Made by a program: the position numbers and the translations under genes. Shown here one piece after another: positions 21,287 through 46,155 of a DNA stretch of 64,000 bases (the stretch's first letter is position 1; each line of letters opens with the position of its first letter). The notes under the pieces are model-generated. The model was not told the DNA's origin. It saw only the letters and a list, made by a program, of their open reading frames with translations, and did not search any database. Source of the stretch: Oscillatoria sp. (GTDB lineage: Bacteria; Cyanobacteriota; Cyanobacteriia; Cyanobacteriales; Laspinemataceae); NCBI GenBank assembly GCA_011390515.1, contig JAABSJ010000005.1, positions 1-64,000 on the forward strand, given 5' to 3'.

Positions 21287-22147
21287 TTAAATTTTTTCAA
21301 ACCAAGCGGTATCAATTTCCACCGACTCAATCATCGTAATCTTAACCCCCAACCTCAATTCTTTCAACCGTTCAACTAATTGTTCACCATCAATTAAATC
21401 AATAGGTGGCGCACCATCTCGGGTTGCTTCCTTGACAGCATCTCGTGTAAATGTACCCGTAGTCACAAACAGTCCTTTATCGGTACGCCCTTGCATCGCT
21501 CCCCGAAAATCCCGAATCTGACCTGCCGTTACTGAACCTTGGTAACGCTTACATTGAAAGAGCACATGAAAGCTCAAGAAACCATTAATCCGCGCAATCC
21601 CTACCCCATCAATACCGCCATCACCAGATTTGCCGGTGACTTGCACTTGGATAAAACCGGATTCCCGGAGTAGACGTTGCACCAAACGCTCAAATGCGGC
21701 AGGTTCAAGGGCTAACAACATTTTGTGTAACTGCTGATGCCATTCGAGTTCTTCTGAGCTTTCCTCAATCGTTGCTAATATTGGATCTGAATCATCGACT
21801 TTGCTTTTTTCAATATCTCGAATGGCTTTGACAATTTCTTTGGGATCGAGGTGTTCAAAATCAGCATCGGTTGATAATAAGGACCACACCCCCCGTGCTG
21901 AATTTTCCAACAGTCCATATTTTTTCAAGTAGGTACGACTCCACGCGAGACGGTATTCAACTTCACTGGTGGAGGTTTTGCCATGAAGAATTTCTAGCAC
22001 TGGATCCGGCAGATTGAGAATTTGCACCACCTGCTCATAAATTTCTTGGACTGTGCCGGAACCCCCCAGATTTTTTAATGCATCCAGTGTGGGGATTAGC
22101 ATTGCATCAAATGTAGGTACGGAGGAGGGCAATCGTTTAACATTCAT
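21287..22147 (-). CDS. mrr: Mrr-type restriction endonuclease (N-terminal winged helix plus Mrr catalytic domain)
   Basis: FERLVQRLLRESGFIQVQVTGKSGDGGIDGVG..VLFQCKRYQGSVTAGQIRDFRGAMQGRTDKGLFVTTGTFT (PD-(D/E)XK with QxK). Confidence 0.92.
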   Translation of the reverse strand: MNVKRLPSSVPTFDAMLIPTLDALKNLGGSGTVQEIYEQVVQILNLPDPVLEILHGKTSTSEVEYRLAWSRTYLKKYGLLENSARGVWSLLSTDADFEHLDPKEIVKAIRDIEKSKVDDSDPILATIEESSEELEWHQQLHKMLLALEPAAFERLVQRLLRESGFIQVQVTGKSGDGGIDGVGIARINGFLSFHVLFQCKRYQGSVTAGQIRDFRGAMQGRTDKGLFVTTGTFTRDAVKEATRDGAPPIDLIDGEQLVERLKELRLGVKITMIESVEIDTAWFEKI

Positions 22148-31809: not shown

Positions 31810-32146
31810 TTCTGTGCTGTCTTCACTGTAAGCGGGTTCACCCGAGGAAAGTGCTCAGTTTTGTGCTCAGTTTTGTGCTCAGTTCAGTGTTCAGTCCCAG
31901 GTTCAGGGGTGGAGGGTAGGGGCTAGAGTAGTTGTCGGCTCACCGGGATGGTAAACTCAAAGGTATTAAATTTTACCAGGTTTTAGCTTGAAGGACAAAA
32001 CTTGTCAGCCAGGGTGATGCAGGAATGAGCGAAAATGTTATAATGACCCTTAAAATCAAAACAAGATTACAGAATTAAAATGCTGATTGCCTTGAAATAA
32101 CAAACATTTCAATAAAAAATTAACCAATTAATTGGAGGTTGATTCA

Positions 32147-33211
32147 ATGGTTCAAAAAATTGCCTTGTTTAATCACAAAGGCGGAGTCAGCACAACAACT
32201 ACGACCTTTAACCTCGGTTGGATGCTGGCATCAAAAGGTAAAAGAGTGATCATGGTTGATGCTGATCCACAATGTAATCTTACCGAAATGGCATTAGGGG
32301 AAAACCCCGAAGATGATGAAGCGAGAATCGAAAGAATTTATCAGACCTACTCTAATATAAAAACAGGTTTAGCACCGGCCTTTGAATCCCAGCCTAAAGC
32401 CATTGAAGCGGTAGACTGTATTCCCATCAAGGGCCAAGAGAGATTATTTTTACTACCGGGTCATGTTGGGCTTGCTGAATATGAAGCAACTCTAGGGATT
32501 GCTCAGGAACTCAGGGGGTCAATTTATTCCCTCAGAAATTTACCCGGTGCTATTACCGATTTCCTAGAGAAAACAGCGGAAAAGTTTGAGGCTGATTATA
32601 TTTTAATTGATATGGGTCCTAGCTTGGGTGCAATCAATCAAAATATCCTGATGACTAGCGATTTTTTCATTGTGCCAACTAGGGCTGATTTTTTTTCAAT
32701 CATGGCACTTGACTCTCTGGCGAAAGTCTTACCGAAATGGTACGCTTGGGCTACTAGAGCAAATTCGCTGCAACTCTTGAAAGATGCGATTTATCCATTC
32801 CCCGAGGTCAAGCTTAAGTTTTTAGGGATTATTGTTCAGAATGTGGTGAGAATTAATGGGAGAGAAACAGCAGCATTTAAAGCTTTGATACAAAAAATAG
32901 AGCAAGTTGTTAGCTCTCAATTAATTCCTATGTTAAAAGCTCATAATATGCTGTTGCCAGAGCAGGAGTATTTTAATCAAAAAATCAAGGATAACTTTTG
33001 CTTAACTAAAATATCGGATTTTCATAACTTGATTGACAAATCTCAACAGTATCAAGTGCCAGTTTATGAGTTAACCCCTCAGCAATTAGGTTCCACCAAA
33101 GTAGGGCTAGAAAATAATCAGAAAAAGCAGGAGGATTTTAGAGATACATTTTCGGATTTAGCCGATAAAATTATAGGACTAACTTCTACGGCTTATGCAG
33201 TCAGCGCTTGA
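32147..33211 (+). CDS. ParA/MinD-like ATPase with altered Walker A (KGGVSTTTT)
   Basis: MVQKIALFNHKGGVSTTTTTFNLGWMLASKGKRVIMVDADPQCNLTEM; YILIDMGPSLGAINQNIL. GGAGG RBS upstream of the ATG at 32147. Confidence 0.92.
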   Translation: MVQKIALFNHKGGVSTTTTTFNLGWMLASKGKRVIMVDADPQCNLTEMALGENPEDDEARIERIYQTYSNIKTGLAPAFESQPKAIEAVDCIPIKGQERLFLLPGHVGLAEYEATLGIAQELRGSIYSLRNLPGAITDFLEKTAEKFEADYILIDMGPSLGAINQNILMTSDFFIVPTRADFFSIMALDSLAKVLPKWYAWATRANSLQLLKDAIYPFPEVKLKFLGIIVQNVVRINGRETAAFKALIQKIEQVVSSQLIPMLKAHNMLLPEQEYFNQKIKDNFCLTKISDFHNLIDKSQQYQVPVYELTPQQLGSTKVGLENNQKKQEDFRDTFSDLADKIIGLTSTAYAVSA

Positions 33212-33944
33212 CCAATTTCGGATTAGCATCAGTCGGGTGAGAGACTTGATTGCTCTTCATAACTCGCTCAATGCTCAATCGACGACTGCTTTAGATTTAT
33301 CGGATATGTTGAGATCGGCACTGGTGCTAGGGGTGAGTGCCTTGGATTACTATATTCATGAAGTTGTAACTTTAGGAATGCTGGAGATTCAACGAGGTCA
33401 ACGTTTGGAACCTGCCCCTTCCCGAAACAGTGCTCAATCCTCATTTTCTCGCTTTCAAGTTTCATTAGGAGGGGCCAGACAGGACCGATTGAAAGCATTA
33501 GAGATTGCCTCATGGCTAGAAAATGAGATTGCCCAAACACAAGGACCCGCATTTTTACAACAGTCCTATACTGTGTCAGCGTTGTTGCCTGCGATCGCCA
33601 CAAGTATTCAAAACCAATTGAATAATACAGATTGGCTAGAAGATGAAATTCGCGAACGCCTAGGATATCAGAGTTTTCAACACCCGGACAAAATAGCCGA
33701 TGCCATTCGATTAATTTCTGATAAAAAGCTGTGGGAGGAAGTGGCGAATCAAATGGGTAAACAGCAGCAGGATATTAAACAACAACTCAAGGCAATAGTC
33801 GATCGCCGGAACCAAATCGCCCATGAAGCTGACATTGATCCAACTTATGGGATTGGCAGTCGCCGAAATATTGATCCAGTCTTAGTCGCCGAAGCAGTTG
33901 ATTTTATTGAGGAGATTATCGAAACGATTCATCAAATCCTGTAA
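33195..33944 (+). CDS. HEPN-domain protein (predicted ribonuclease), RiboL-PSP/MAE_28990-MAE_18760-like
   Basis: All-alpha protein; ALVLGVSALDYYIHEVV and C-terminal RRNQIAHEADID (R-X4-H HEPN motif at about 33807..33824); overlaps the ParA-like gene by 17 nt. Confidence 0.82.
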   Translation: MQSALDQFRISISRVRDLIALHNSLNAQSTTALDLSDMLRSALVLGVSALDYYIHEVVTLGMLEIQRGQRLEPAPSRNSAQSSFSRFQVSLGGARQDRLKALEIASWLENEIAQTQGPAFLQQSYTVSALLPAIATSIQNQLNNTDWLEDEIRERLGYQSFQHPDKIADAIRLISDKKLWEEVANQMGKQQQDIKQQLKAIVDRRNQIAHEADIDPTYGIGSRRNIDPVLVAEAVDFIEEIIETIHQIL

Positions 33945-34014: not shown

Positions 34015-34623
34015 ATGATCGCAACCCCCATAAAATTGGAAAACGTCACCTTGCAATTACCCTGGGACCTGCACCTTCAGGTTACTCCAGAGCAATTTGC
34101 TGCGATCGCCGCTGTCAACCCTGATTTAACCTTAGAACGCACTGCCACAGGAGAATTAGTTGTGAATCTCCCCACCGGAGGCGAAACAGGTAAGCGTAAT
34201 CTCCGCATTAGCACTCAACTTGGCAATTGGTATGAAGCTCATCCAGAACTCGGGGAAGCCTTTGATTCCTCCACCGGATTTACCCTTCCCAATGGTGCCA
34301 ACCGTTCTCCCGATGCGGCTTGGGTGAGTCGAGCACCTTGGCAAGCATTAACCCCAGCGCAACAGAAAGGGTTTGTTCCTTTATCTCCTGATTTTGTGAT
34401 TGAATTGCGGTCCGAGTCGGACAGTTTGGCAAAACTGCAAAGCAAGTTACAGGAGTATATGGACAATGGGACACAATTGGGATGGTTAATTGACCCGCAA
34501 CAGCAACAGGTGGAGATTTATCGCGCCGGACAAGGGGTGGAAATTGTGGTGAATCCGAGTCAATTATCTGGGGAGACGGTGTTACCGGGTTTTGTGTTGA
34601 ATTTGCGCCGAGTTTGGAGTTGA
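34015..34623 (+). CDS. Uma2-family (DUF820) endonuclease-like protein, paralog 1
   Basis: NGANRSPDAAWVS..PLSPDFVIELRSESDSLAKLQSKLQEYMDNGTQLGWLIDPQQQQVEIY. Confidence 0.93.
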   Translation: MIATPIKLENVTLQLPWDLHLQVTPEQFAAIAAVNPDLTLERTATGELVVNLPTGGETGKRNLRISTQLGNWYEAHPELGEAFDSSTGFTLPNGANRSPDAAWVSRAPWQALTPAQQKGFVPLSPDFVIELRSESDSLAKLQSKLQEYMDNGTQLGWLIDPQQQQVEIYRAGQGVEIVVNPSQLSGETVLPGFVLNLRRVWS

Positions 34624-34765: not shown

Positions 34766-35374
34766 ATGATCGCCACCCCCATAAAATCGGAAACTGTCAC
34801 CTTGCAATTACCTCGGGACCTGAACCTTCAGGTTACTCCATCGCAATTTGCTGCGATCGCCGCTGTTAACCCTGAGTTAAAACTAGAACGGACTGCCACA
34901 GGAGAATTAATCGTGACTCCCCCCACTGGCGGCGAAACGGGATCTCGCAATATCAGAATCGCCTATTTTTTGGTCAAATGGATTGAGGAAGAAGGGGGAA
35001 ATGGCATTGCCTTTGACTCCTCCACCGGATTTACCCTCCCCAATGGTGCCAACCGTTCTCCCGATGCCGCTTGGGTGAGTCGAGAACGTTGGCAAGCATT
35101 AACCCCAGCGCAACGGAAAGGATTTGTGCCTTTATCTCCTGATTTTGTGATTGAATTGCGGTCCGAGTCGGACCGTTTGGCAAAACTGCAAAGCAAGTTA
35201 CAGGAGTATCTCGACAATGGCACAGAATTGGGGTGGTTAATTGACCCGCAACAGCAACAGGTAGAAATTTATCGGGTGGGACAAGGGGTGGAAATTGTGG
35301 TGAATCCGAGACAATTATCTGGGGAGGGGGTGTTACCGGGGTTTGTGTTGAATTTGCAACGGGTGTGGAGTTGA
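34766..35374 (+). CDS. Uma2-family (DUF820) endonuclease-like protein, paralog 2
   Basis: NGANRSPDAAWVSRERWQALTPAQRKGFVPLSPDFVIELRSESDRLAKLQSKLQEYLDNG; same length and near-identical C-terminal half to paralog 1. Confidence 0.93.
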   Translation: MIATPIKSETVTLQLPRDLNLQVTPSQFAAIAAVNPELKLERTATGELIVTPPTGGETGSRNIRIAYFLVKWIEEEGGNGIAFDSSTGFTLPNGANRSPDAAWVSRERWQALTPAQRKGFVPLSPDFVIELRSESDRLAKLQSKLQEYLDNGTELGWLIDPQQQQVEIYRVGQGVEIVVNPRQLSGEGVLPGFVLNLQRVWS

Positions 35375-36674: not shown

Positions 36675-38177
36675 ATGTCAAAGTCGCTGAAGGCATCGAC
36701 GGAAGGATTGGCAGTCGCCGATCGCGCTAGAAAGCGGTTGGGTTGGACAAAAACCAGTACAGCGCGATGGTGGCAGGATGCTCATACCTCCCGCGCCACC
36801 TTACGCCGATTTTGGCATGGCGATCGCATTCAACGGGATATTTTCATCGCCCTTTGTGCTGCCGTGGGGATTAGCAACTGGGAGGCGATCGCCGAACCCT
36901 GTGAAGCAGATTTTGACCCCGCGATCCCCGAGTCTCCGCCAATCCGAGACTGGCAGGAAGCGCCAGATTTAGACTCATTTTTCGGACGCGATCGCGAATT
37001 GGCACAACTGGAACAATGGATTCCCACGGCTAAACTCATCCTGATTTCCGGCATTGGTGGCATCGGAAAAACCGCCCTCGCTCTGGCATTTGCTGACTCC
37101 ATTCAACTACAATTCCAGGGGGTAATCTGGCGATCGCTACACCATTCGCCCTCGGTTGAAGCACTCCTGGATAGTCTCCTCTCCACCTTAGAAGGAACCT
37201 CTGTCACCAATCTTGCCAAAGGCACAACCCAATTACTCCACCATCTCAAACACCGGCGCTATCTGCTGATTTTAGATGGATTAGAAGCGGTCTTACAATC
37301 GCGGGAATTAGAGACAGAATACAGTGATTTTCTCGAAATCTTAAGTCGCGATCGGCATCAAAGCTGCATTCTGATTACCACTCGCGAACAAGCTCAAATC
37401 GTCTCCCTAGAAGGCAAAAATTGCCAGGGTTTAACCCTTTCCGGATTGCGAAATACCGCTGCTTTAGACTTGTTAAAATCCCGAGGATTGACCGGGAAAG
37501 AATTAGGAATTTCGGCCTTAATTCAACTGTATCGCGGCAATCCGTTCGCCCTCAAAATCGTGACTCCGGTGATTCAAACGGTATTTGGGGGAAATGTCGC
37601 CGCCTTTTTGAATCAAAATACCCTAATTGTTGGCGATAGATTGCGAACCCTGTTGCACCAACAATTAGAACGCCTCTCGGATTTAGAACGAGAGATTCTC
37701 TACTGGTTAACCATCTGGCAAGAACCCGTGTCATTTTGCCGACTGCACACCCATTTTTTAGTGTTAGTCGATCCGGCAGCATTATTAGAAGGAATTGCCA
37801 ATTTAGAGCGGCGTTCCTTATTAGAATCCTGGTTTGGGGAGGAGTCTTCTGCCTTCACCTTGCAACCTCTGGTGATGAAAACAGTCCAAGATGAATTAGT
37901 CGAACGTGCCACAGCGGAAATGCAACGGGTGGTGCAGAGTCATGATATTAGATATTTTAAAGTCTGGCGATCGCTGATGTTCTTTAGACCCGGAACCGAT
38001 GATATTGCAGGCGATAAAATTATCAATCAACTCCGTGAGAACCTCTGGCAAATCTATGGCGCGACCCTACCACAAACCTTGCACAACGTTCTGGCGTTGT
38101 TATCGGACAAATCCCCCTTGGCAGTGGGTTATATCGGCTGTAATGCGATCGGGCTGCTGCAACCGTTAGATTTGTAA
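36675..38177 (+). CDS. NB-ARC/STAND NTPase with N-terminal HTH-like domain; appears to lack a C-terminal repeat domain
   Basis: LILISGIGGIGKTALALAFADSI (Walker A), YLLILDGLEAVL (Walker B), ILITTREQAQ; ends abruptly at ..GYIGCNAIGLLQPLDL. Confidence 0.85.
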   Translation: MSKSLKASTEGLAVADRARKRLGWTKTSTARWWQDAHTSRATLRRFWHGDRIQRDIFIALCAAVGISNWEAIAEPCEADFDPAIPESPPIRDWQEAPDLDSFFGRDRELAQLEQWIPTAKLILISGIGGIGKTALALAFADSIQLQFQGVIWRSLHHSPSVEALLDSLLSTLEGTSVTNLAKGTTQLLHHLKHRRYLLILDGLEAVLQSRELETEYSDFLEILSRDRHQSCILITTREQAQIVSLEGKNCQGLTLSGLRNTAALDLLKSRGLTGKELGISALIQLYRGNPFALKIVTPVIQTVFGGNVAAFLNQNTLIVGDRLRTLLHQQLERLSDLEREILYWLTIWQEPVSFCRLHTHFLVLVDPAALLEGIANLERRSLLESWFGEESSAFTLQPLVMKTVQDELVERATAEMQRVVQSHDIRYFKVWRSLMFFRPGTDDIAGDKIINQLRENLWQIYGATLPQTLHNVLALLSDKSPLAVGYIGCNAIGLLQPLDL

Positions 38178-38510: not shown

Positions 38511-41198
38511 TCACCCCTGCCATACCATCCGGCAAATCTCCTGATCCACCAGTTGATAGCGGGGGATTGGGGTATCGTATAGGCGGAAGAGTAAGCCCGA
38601 CTGCACTAATATTTCTAGGATTATTTGTAATCTCTCGGGACTGCTTCCGAGTTCGGTTGTGAGTTCTTCTAGGGTTTTGCGGCAGGGATAGGGCATGGTG
38701 GGGCACTGTTCACAGTCGGGAGTCGGTTTGGCGAGGGTTTGGAGGGCGGATCGGGCGATTTGGATGTTTTCTACGCCACAGTCAGAAATCGCCTCTCGGA
38801 TGCCTCGTCGAAGTAAGGCTGCTTTGCCGCCATAGTCTTGATATTCGGCTAGGGTAGTAATCTGTTCGGCTTCGAGTTGTGTGCCTGCTAATTGTAACAT
38901 CAGCCCTCGCACTTCGGCCACTGTACCAGGGGCTAAGTCTTTGACTAATTGCTCGCTCAGTTCCGATTCTAGGGCATATTCCGCCTGTTCTGTTAACCCC
39001 ATCATGGCCCGGTGAGCGGTGTCCAGGGATAAGTCTTGCAAATGATAGCACAAGTTTTCCCGGGTCTCTCGGTTGATAAATTCTAGCGATCGCAGGGATT
39101 CGTTTTCGAGTAAATCAGCCAAATGTTCCGTCCGTAAACAGACGATCGCCTTGACAAAGGGAACATTCAAGCAGTCGTGCAAAAACTCATAAAACAGGTG
39201 GCGGTGTGACTCATGGGCACTATCAAATAAGTCCGCATCCACATCAAACAGTAGGGCGGTTAAAATGTTGCGATCGCCATTTCCTCCCAGGCGATCGCAG
39301 AGGGTGTGCAGCATGGGAATCCGATTTTGCTCCTCGGTTGTGTCCACAATGGGTAATCCCATCTGAGCAAAAGTACGATTAAAAACTTCAACTGCGCCGG
39401 GAAACCAATCCCCTTGAATAGAAATAACCAGGGGTAATGCCAAATGGAGTCCGATTTGTTTTTGATGTAAGGCAGGGGCTAATTGAGCGGATAAGAGGGA
39501 GGATTTGCCGACGCCTGCGGGACCATGAATTAGGGTAAGTTTGTAGTCCGGACGGCCAATTCGGGTAATCGCACATTCGACTTCAGATTCTCGTCCCGTG
39601 AGACTTTCCCCGGCATAGCGTTTCCGGGGAAAGGGCCGATCGCCAATGCCGAGATGCAGCAGTTGGGTGGGATTCAGGGGGTGGAGTTGGGGTTGCAGGG
39701 GTTGGGCACCAATGAAAGCGCGTAATCCATACTGATGTTCCAGGGCGTAGAGTTCCTGTTTCAGGGCAAAGGCGGTGAGGCGATCGCCTCGATTGAAGTA
39801 CAGCGATCGCAATTCCCAGAGGATTTCACTGTATAATCGAGGATTACATTCCGGTTGGGCTTCGGATTTGGCTTCTTCTAGGGTGGCAATGGCTTGGGAA
39901 CTCTCACTGAGTGCCGACAGGGCTCTCCCTAATAATAATAAATACCAGCCGCGATGATACTGGGCGGACCATTCTAGGAAACTGCGTTTTTCCGGGGTGA
40001 GAGTCTTGGTGCGGTAGGATTCCAGAATCTGGAGGGCATTTAAGGCGGACTGCTTGGCGATCGCCCATTGGGAGTTCCAGAGGGCCACTTCCCCCCAATA
40101 GCCGCAATCCTGTGCCTCCGCGATCGGGTCGGGATATTGTTGATGCAGTTGAGTGGCGATCGATGCCACCTCTTCCAATCCATCGCGGTCCCGGAGTTTT
40201 TGCAGCACTTCCCCCAGGGCATTGATAAATTTTGCCATCAAATCCCGGCGATCGGCTTGTTGGTAGATGGCGACACATTGCTGAAAATAGTCTCGCGCTT
40301 GCCGGTAGGCTGCTGTAGCTACGCCTCGATGTAAGAGGGCTTCCCGATGCCAGCAAGCACCCAGATAAAACAGCAAACAGCCATAGCGTTCTAAATTGGG
40401 AGTAGAGTTTTCCTCTGGTGGATTCCCTGAAGCGGGGATTGTGGGGACGGCTTTTTCCCAAAAGGCGAGACTGCGTTGGTAAAATTCGCGGGCGGTTGTG
40501 AGTTCATCATGACTGTAGGCATTCCAACCCCGCACGAAATCTAAACAGGCTTGTAAATAGGGGTCCAAACTCTCCCCCGCCCGCTCAATATCCTTAATTG
40601 CACAGGCGATTTCCTGGCGATGGGTGTGGGTTAATAGTTCAATAGCAGCGCCAACTTGCAGTTGGTCCGCCCCGGCTTCTAGGATGCAGTTAAATAAACT
40701 TTCGGCGGTTTGGCGCAAGCGTTGGATGAGTTTAGGGGTGGGAATTTCAAATTTAATGGAGGGTCCCGCCCAACTTTTAAAATTTGGGGCAAATTGCGTG
40801 ATGCGATGCAGCAAATCGTCCGTAACCCAGAGGATTAATGGGAAGGGAAACTGTTTGCGAAATTCGTCCCGAACTAAATCAATGGAAATTAATAATTCAT
40901 CGATCGCCACGGCGGATTCTAATCCTAGAACCATCACCCCAGGGAGTGAGGGCAATTCCCCAAATTCCTCAATCATTTTACCAAATAAGGTGGTACTTAA
41001 GGGGGGTAAATGGATTTCGGCCACCGAAACCGGACATCGTTCCCGCAGTCGTTGCAGCATTTCTGTTTGCAAATGCCGATAATTGCACCGCACCAAAATG
41101 ATGGCAAATTGTTCGGCAGACAAAGCGATCGCCCTCGATAGGGTATTTAGGGAGCGTTCGTTGTAAGCCGCTACATCAATGGGCTGTTGTTGTTCCAT
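38511..41198 (-). CDS. Large STAND-type P-loop NTPase with TPR-like middle region
   Basis: Second half LTLIHGPAGVGKSSLLSAQLAPALHQ (Walker A) and ILTALLFDVDADLFDSAH; alpha-helical repeat region LYFNRGDRLTAFALKQELYALE. Confidence 0.8.
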   Translation of the reverse strand: MEQQQPIDVAAYNERSLNTLSRAIALSAEQFAIILVRCNYRHLQTEMLQRLRERCPVSVAEIHLPPLSTTLFGKMIEEFGELPSLPGVMVLGLESAVAIDELLISIDLVRDEFRKQFPFPLILWVTDDLLHRITQFAPNFKSWAGPSIKFEIPTPKLIQRLRQTAESLFNCILEAGADQLQVGAAIELLTHTHRQEIACAIKDIERAGESLDPYLQACLDFVRGWNAYSHDELTTAREFYQRSLAFWEKAVPTIPASGNPPEENSTPNLERYGCLLFYLGACWHREALLHRGVATAAYRQARDYFQQCVAIYQQADRRDLMAKFINALGEVLQKLRDRDGLEEVASIATQLHQQYPDPIAEAQDCGYWGEVALWNSQWAIAKQSALNALQILESYRTKTLTPEKRSFLEWSAQYHRGWYLLLLGRALSALSESSQAIATLEEAKSEAQPECNPRLYSEILWELRSLYFNRGDRLTAFALKQELYALEHQYGLRAFIGAQPLQPQLHPLNPTQLLHLGIGDRPFPRKRYAGESLTGRESEVECAITRIGRPDYKLTLIHGPAGVGKSSLLSAQLAPALHQKQIGLHLALPLVISIQGDWFPGAVEVFNRTFAQMGLPIVDTTEEQNRIPMLHTLCDRLGGNGDRNILTALLFDVDADLFDSAHESHRHLFYEFLHDCLNVPFVKAIVCLRTEHLADLLENESLRSLEFINRETRENLCYHLQDLSLDTAHRAMMGLTEQAEYALESELSEQLVKDLAPGTVAEVRGLMLQLAGTQLEAEQITTLAEYQDYGGKAALLRRGIREAISDCGVENIQIARSALQTLAKPTPDCEQCPTMPYPCRKTLEELTTELGSSPERLQIILEILVQSGLLFRLYDTPIPRYQLVDQEICRMVWQG

Positions 41199-44973: not shown

Positions 44974-46155
44974 ATGCAGAGAATAAGGAGGGAGGCAATG
45001 CTAGAAGACGGTCTTGGCACTCAAGTTGAAGATAGCCAGGAACTACTTGAGGATCAATTTGAAGAGGAAGATGAAGAAGAGTTAGAGGAGGAACTGACTA
45101 TCCCGGTGAAGGATAGAAAGCTCGTCACGCATCCTTATGACTTTGTGATCCGATCGCTCAAAGCTCAGATTGATGACCAGACTCTGGTTTTGGCGGATAA
45201 ATTTCAGCGTCGGCAAGTTTGGGACCAAACCAAATGCAGTCGGTTGATCGAATCTCTCCTGCTGAATGTTCCCATTCCCGTCTGTTATTTTGCAGAATTA
45301 GATGATGGATCCTATAGCGTCATTGACGGTCAACAACGGTTGACCGCGATTTATCGGTTTCTCAATAATGAATTTCCCCTCCGGGCGTTAAAAATACTCC
45401 CCGACATTAACCGCAAACAATTTGAAGACCTTGAGGTATCTTACCAACGCTTGCTCCTATCCCGGACCATTCGTTGTATTGTCATCCTCAAAGAATCCCA
45501 CCCGGATATTAAATTTGATGTCTTTGAGCGCTTAAATACGGGATTTGTCCCCCTGAATGCTCAGGAAATCCGCAACAGCGTCTATCGTGGCAAGTTGAAT
45601 GATTTAATTTTAGAACTGTCCGAGGATGAGGTTTTCCAAAAAACTCGCCGGGTTCTGAATATCGATAAACGAATGCAAGATTGCGAAATGATTTTGCGCT
45701 TTTTTGCCTTCTTTTTCGACCCGATCGCCTATCGCGGCACCTTATCGAAATTCCTGGATCAATACCTAGAACAGGGAATTCATTTTGACGATGAAACCAT
45801 CGAGCATCATCGCGAAATCTTTAGAAAAACCATTGATGATGTGTTCGCGATTTTTGATTACGGAGCTTTCCGGCGCTATAATCCTGATACGGGATGGGAA
45901 AAATCTATCAACCGCGCTATTTATGATGTAATCATGCTCTCGTTTGCTTATGTCAGTTCCGAGGACATTCGCAGCAGCAAAACCGAGATTATTGAAGCAC
46001 TCAAAAAAGTGTGTCAAGACCCCGATTTTAGCGAAGCGATTACCTCCTCTACCAAAAATAGAGACCGGATTCAAACCCGGATCGACAAATGGCGAGATGC
46101 GATGACAGAGATCGGGTTGGATGTTCCGAAAATTAAAATCGGCAAAGACTCGTGA
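44974..46155 (+). CDS. DUF262 domain protein
   Basis: YSVIDGQQRLTAIYRFLNNEF; FDVFERLNTGFVPLNAQEIRNSVYRG. Confidence 0.92.
   Translation: MQRIRREAMLEDGLGTQVEDSQELLEDQFEEEDEEELEEELTIPVKDRKLVTHPYDFVIRSLKAQIDDQTLVLADKFQRRQVWDQTKCSRLIESLLLNVPIPVCYFAELDDGSYSVIDGQQRLTAIYRFLNNEFPLRALKILPDINRKQFEDLEVSYQRLLLSRTIRCIVILKESHPDIKFDVFERLNTGFVPLNAQEIRNSVYRGKLNDLILELSEDEVFQKTRRVLNIDKRMQDCEMILRFFAFFFDPIAYRGTLSKFLDQYLEQGIHFDDETIEHHREIFRKTIDDVFAIFDYGAFRRYNPDTGWEKSINRAIYDVIMLSFAYVSSEDIRSSKTEIIEALKKVCQDPDFSEAITSSTKNRDRIQTRIDKWRDAMTEIGLDVPKIKIGKDS

Follow-up and report, generated by a model that had tools for sequence, protein, structure and literature searches.

The window, i.e. the whole 64,000-nucleotide stretch of the Oscillatoria sp. 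contig that was analysed, carries on its forward strand a ParA-like gene (positions 32147-33211; 354 aa), proposed to encode an antitoxin or regulator, followed by a HEPN gene (33195-33944; 249 aa), predicted to encode an RNase toxin. The two frames overlap by 17 nt (33195-33211), and both ORFs, together with their overlap, were confirmed at the coordinates given by the first-pass annotation. The ParA-like gene starts at ATG 32147, just after a GGAGG ribosome-binding site (32134-32138, forward strand) that was read directly and is conserved in Laspinema relatives; the same start is found in relatives, and the mechanical ORF list carries the frame further, to TTG 32132. A Shine-Dalgarno check returned a strong ribosome-binding site for ParA and none at the usual distance for the HEPN start, which makes translational coupling of HEPN to ParA probable.

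A promoter and terminator scan of the locus showed no signal above chance. Two possible control sites, both weak candidates lying outside what the scan selected, were noted on the forward strand upstream of the module. The hexamer TATAAT (32039-32044), which might be the -10 box of the operon, is the same at loci L002 and L003 and reads TATAAA at L001, while the palindrome CCAATTAATTGG (32124-32135, read directly), a possible operator beside the ribosome-binding site, is identical at L001 and L002 and degenerate at L003. Short GTGCTCAGTT/GTGTTCAGT repeats at 31850-31895, also upstream of the module, are retained in the Laspinema relatives.

The HEPN protein was assigned by profile search to PF18735 (HEPN_RiboL-PSP) with 52.5 bits against a curated cut-off of 28.4, and the same profile matched 25 of the 25 members of set A1 (E<=0.1). 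Membership of PF18737 (MAE_28990/MAE_18760) was rejected, as the score of 19 bits fell below the cut-off of 26.8. The protein also matches phrog_13503 (E=1.4e-33), which is listed as of unknown function and is the family of this HEPN. AlphaFold2 gave a confident model (pLDDT 89.5) made up of helices only, in which helix 191-210 ends with the R-X4-H motif. A Foldseek search with this model returned no significant HEPN match (best E 0.44, MntA-HepT toxins around E=1), and it is therefore the sequence profile, together with the motif, that supports the assignment.

The predicted catalytic motif, R205-NQIA-H210, is encoded at 33807-33824 on the forward strand. The first-pass annotation had correctly recognised RNQIAH and had described the protein as ending with it, which is inexact, as the motif occupies residues 205-210 of 249, 39 before the C-terminus. 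Among 43 homologues from cyanobacteria and phages, residues R40, D51, H55, W180, R204, R205, I208, H210 and D213 do not vary. R-N-[KQ]-I-A-H is kept phylum-wide in the cyanobacterial HEPNs, with R-H in one of them, and the broader form R-[NH]-x-I-[AV]-H was present in every intact homologue examined, whether cyanobacterial, phage or plasmid. The HEPNs of Microcoleaceae (L054, L055, L057, L058 and L059) are devoid of an insert of about 50 aa found in other cyanobacterial copies and have a phage-like length of 201-204 aa.

The ParA-like protein matched Pfam AAA_31 with 107.7 bits (E=8e-31) and the ParA/Soj fold with E=1e-13. Its best full-length sequence match, which is also a good fold match, was PDB 3pg5 (E=1.6e-34), i.e. 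DIP2308 of Corynebacterium diphtheriae, an uncharacterised structural-genomics target. The deviant Walker A motif KGGxxK[ST], intact in the Laspinema relatives and in the phage homologues, is broken in the window: the codon of Lys16 is AAG in the Laspinema relatives (KGGVSKTT) and ACA (32192-32194, forward strand) in the window, resulting in a K16T replacement (KGGVSTTT). The first-pass annotation had called this product a switch protein, a description that is weakened here in its ATPase sense by the loss of the P-loop lysine.

The window ParA departs from conserved columns at nine positions, against a median of three, and Tajima tests against L003 assigned 26-33 changes to the window branch, compared with 4-6 for the opposite branch (p 4e-4 to 5e-6). 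For the HEPN protein, four of the five tests showed no difference and one gave p=0.03. The window ParA is thus evolving fast, and the HEPN is conserved with no consistent acceleration. These data could indicate a module decaying in this strain, in which ParA would be an inactive remnant and HEPN would follow; the lost lysine, the nine departures and the acceleration of ParA all fit this reading, but both frames are open, the HEPN motif is kept and its rate is not consistently raised. Moreover, a ParA devoid of its P-loop can persist. In two Crocosphaera genomes (L016 and L024) the whole P-loop is gone, and yet the ParA frame is open with a dN/dS of 0.34, next to a HEPN with a dN/dS of 0.136. 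We consider decay of the window copy rather unlikely, and it would in any case concern this copy and be compatible with a toxin-antitoxin role of the family.

The window and Crocosphaera thus show that HEPN can stay intact beside a ParA unable to bind ATP normally, which suggests that any restraint of HEPN by ParA is probably independent of ATP binding. The same observation argues against ATP hydrolysis as the means of restraint, and in favour either of binding alone or of a role of ATP in release or activation.

The association of the two genes was then evaluated across cyanobacteria. A scan that covered each species by a single genome and used patterns taken from the window's own HEPN, hence reaching close relatives only, returned 75 loci, all cyanobacterial, in which ParA lies directly upstream of HEPN wherever the contig extends that far. 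The 17-nt overlap was found in nearly all of them, its length being conserved phylum-wide. A search keyed on ParA (E<=1e-40) gave 27 of 339 cyanobacterial genomes, and HEPN was present in 27/27, mostly directly downstream; in one of these, G195, it occurs as a fragment only. The few HEPN matches lacking ParA among the 339 genomes were fragments, remnants or a weak hit. The first-pass annotation had named a lack of co-occurrence in other genomes as the finding that would speak against the cassette, and co-occurrence proved to be strong in both searches. As gene order, overlap and motif are conserved across the phylum, the pair is not due to chance: the ParA-like and HEPN genes are a genuine unit with obligate pairing.

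The distances of the two proteins correlate, with a Mantel r of 0.88 in phages and 0.50 in cyanobacteria (0/1000 permutations as high). The pair is patchy, occurring in about 8% of the sampled cyanobacterial genomes. Recent transfer among cyanobacteria was rejected as the main cause, since the joint tree of both proteins is close to taxonomy (12 changes against a minimum of 9); loss therefore explains much of the patchiness. The cyanobacterial copies are thus largely inherited vertically and often lost, and are less mobile than typical toxin-antitoxin loci.

The pair also occurs on mobile elements. In the prophage form of Pf1, Orf317 (annotated as 'similar to Soj (ParA)') is followed by a HEPN ORF with the motif RNSIVH and an 8-nt overlap. 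This R-X4-H ORF, directly 3' of Orf317 at L097:3001-3525 (AY324828), is unannotated. The Pf1 genes are homologous to the window pair and differ from it in being phage-borne, in their intact Walker A and in the absence of the insert of about 50 aa of most cyanobacterial HEPNs. Homologous pairs were also found in phage WX-TY and in Burkholderia glumae plasmids, and about 20 further pairs in viral contigs of filamentous and tailed phages. Relatives of this ParA devoid of HEPN reside mainly in tailed prophages, so that the ParA family has another ancestral role. A quickly built ParA tree, some branches of which are long, places the HEPN-paired members in a single group and requires one subsequent loss (2 changes, whereas shuffles gave 24.5); the HEPN partner was therefore probably gained once. 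Solo sister groups of the ParA-like gene occur in prophages and plasmids (L100-L102 and the HEPN-less loci of L131-L191). Two of these solo genes (L190:864-1844 and L131:5004-6029) overlap by a few bases different downstream ORFs (268 and 310 aa) that may encode other effectors.

The first-pass annotation had also pointed to the neighbours of the pair, and family searches confirmed tandem, similar Uma2 genes directly 3' of the module (34015-34623 and 34766-35374) and two STAND NTPases nearby, i.e. an NB-ARC gene (36675-38177, forward strand) and an nSTAND1 gene (38511-41198, reverse strand). Among the loci fetched, the two STAND genes reappear in the closest relatives only and hence do not belong to the unit; Uma2 genes lie near the module in many cyanobacteria and are multi-copy. 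Membership in a STAND/Uma2 defence island was rejected on these grounds, the neighbours varying by genome, and a three-gene system was also rejected, as no third gene is conserved beside the pair. Many Nostocales copies are located upstream of a U32 peptidase gene, named from reading its sequence and not by family search. Overall, the flanks of the loci are mostly housekeeping, along with a few restriction or Abi-type genes (the flanks were read in these loci alone, which may conceal a mild enrichment), and consistent defence-island placement was not found; the suggested defence neighbourhood was thus not borne out. No PADLOC system model matched either, the search returning just weak HEPN matches and a match to PDC-M28B that is confined to the P-loop stretch, on account of which this identity was discarded. 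The same window also contains an Mrr-type restriction endonuclease gene (21287-22147, reverse strand) and a GmrSD N-terminal-domain gene (44974-46155, forward strand).

The ParA fold and the carriage by plasmids and by the Pf1 prophage form might suggest a hybrid of partition and addiction, in which ParA would segregate the carrier phage or plasmid or control its copy number and HEPN would kill segregants. However, the absence of a conserved third gene around the pair in the compared loci speaks against a ParB-like partner, the cyanobacterial loci sit among housekeeping genes, and P-loop loss is tolerated. We regard this hybrid as very improbable.

Purifying selection acts on both proteins among the closest relatives, more tightly on HEPN (dN/dS 0.11-0.20). 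Among the 75 loci, 13 were disrupted in HEPN only and one in ParA only. Removal of a case at a contig end (L074) left 12 against 1, with p=2e-4 against gene length, a count to be read with the notion that a HEPN-keyed search is biased against finding broken HEPNs and that sequencing errors would strike the longer ParA more. This asymmetry is as predicted if HEPN is costly or toxic and its partner harmless; it marks HEPN as costly or dispensable and does not by itself prove neutralisation by ParA.

The decay pattern also bears on the alternative of an abortive-infection system, with the ParA-like ATPase as sensor and activator of a HEPN that would be off by default and switched on when ParA detects phage. 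The presence among phage cargo fits inter-phage exclusion, occasional restriction or Abi neighbours occur, and the harmlessness of P-loop loss beside an intact HEPN would follow from a need for ATP in activation. However, this model predicts that breakage of ParA alone is as harmless as breakage of HEPN, whereas 1 case was found against 12, and the inconsistent defence-island placement and the lack of a defence model match also speak against it; we therefore judge it unlikely. Still less probable, and on a par with the partition hybrid, is a domesticated pair acting in RNA processing or stress regulation in cyanobacteria with no conflict role. Largely vertical inheritance, the shared Nostocales locus and the strong constraint on HEPN agree with domestication, but not the restriction to only about 8% of the sampled genomes, the frequent decay of HEPN and the phage and plasmid homologues.

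A ParA/Soj-HEPN dyad was described by Anantharaman et al. 2013 (PMC3710099), who regarded its HEPN as a member of the MAE_18760 family and postulated an antitoxin role for ParA and an RNase toxin role for HEPN. The window pair shows the same two-gene combination, with the same roles proposed for ATPase and HEPN, and belongs to the kind predicted in 2013, being a new member of a kind already described. In the literature searched, which mostly did not extend to subscription papers, the dyad was described only in PMC3710099 among papers joining HEPN with Soj or ParA, and no experimental paper on it was found. The window HEPN differs from that of the 2013 dyad in scoring in PF18735 and below the cut-off in PF18737. 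Reading of 28 PF18737 loci outside this subfamily with about 1.5 kb of flank (146 cyanobacterial genomes) revealed no ParA, so the 2013 dyad may be identical to the present one or a sister of it. The HEPN/MNT system (HepT/MntA) likewise combines a HEPN RNase bearing R-X4-H with an upstream nucleotide-binding partner. That partner is a nucleotidyltransferase, whereas the partner in the window is of the AAA_31/ParA type with no MNT match, and, unlike HEPN/MNT, the window HEPN has no Tyr two residues past the His (RNQIAHEAD).

Taken together, the reading that we favour, and consider somewhat better supported than not, is that the pair is a toxin-antitoxin or abortive-infection module in which a HEPN RNase toxin is restrained by its ParA-like partner. 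The ParA-like protein would be translated first, coupled to HEPN through the overlapping frames, and would bind HEPN and hold it inactive, mainly by protein binding and less by ATP hydrolysis. HEPN would act as a metal-independent RNase toxin through R205 and H210, probably as a dimer, and the ATP cycle of the intact relatives would more likely serve release or sensing. A more specific version is put forward tentatively: ParA might neutralise the HEPN RNase with no nucleotide binding, making it a pseudo-ATPase antitoxin in the window strain and in Crocosphaera, and the ATP cycle of the intact relatives might be a release switch freeing the toxin on phage infection. The candidate toxin-antitoxin or defence cassette proposed in the first-pass annotation thus gains from the obligate pairing, the toxin-like decay and the carriage by phages and plasmids, and loses its defence neighbourhood and any PADLOC counterpart.

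We conclude that the locus is a real, conserved toxin-antitoxin-like module, for which pairing and decay pattern are direct observations and for which toxicity, binding and trigger are predicted. The ParA-HEPN dyad, which in the literature searched stands as a prediction of 2013, now emerges as a unit whose two genes are obligately paired across cyanobacteria and probably coupled in translation. Well-known phages carry the dyad too, among them Pf1, in which the HEPN partner is unannotated. The K16T ParA of the window and the P-loop-less ParA of Crocosphaera are natural mutants that bear directly on whether restraint of HEPN needs ATP binding.
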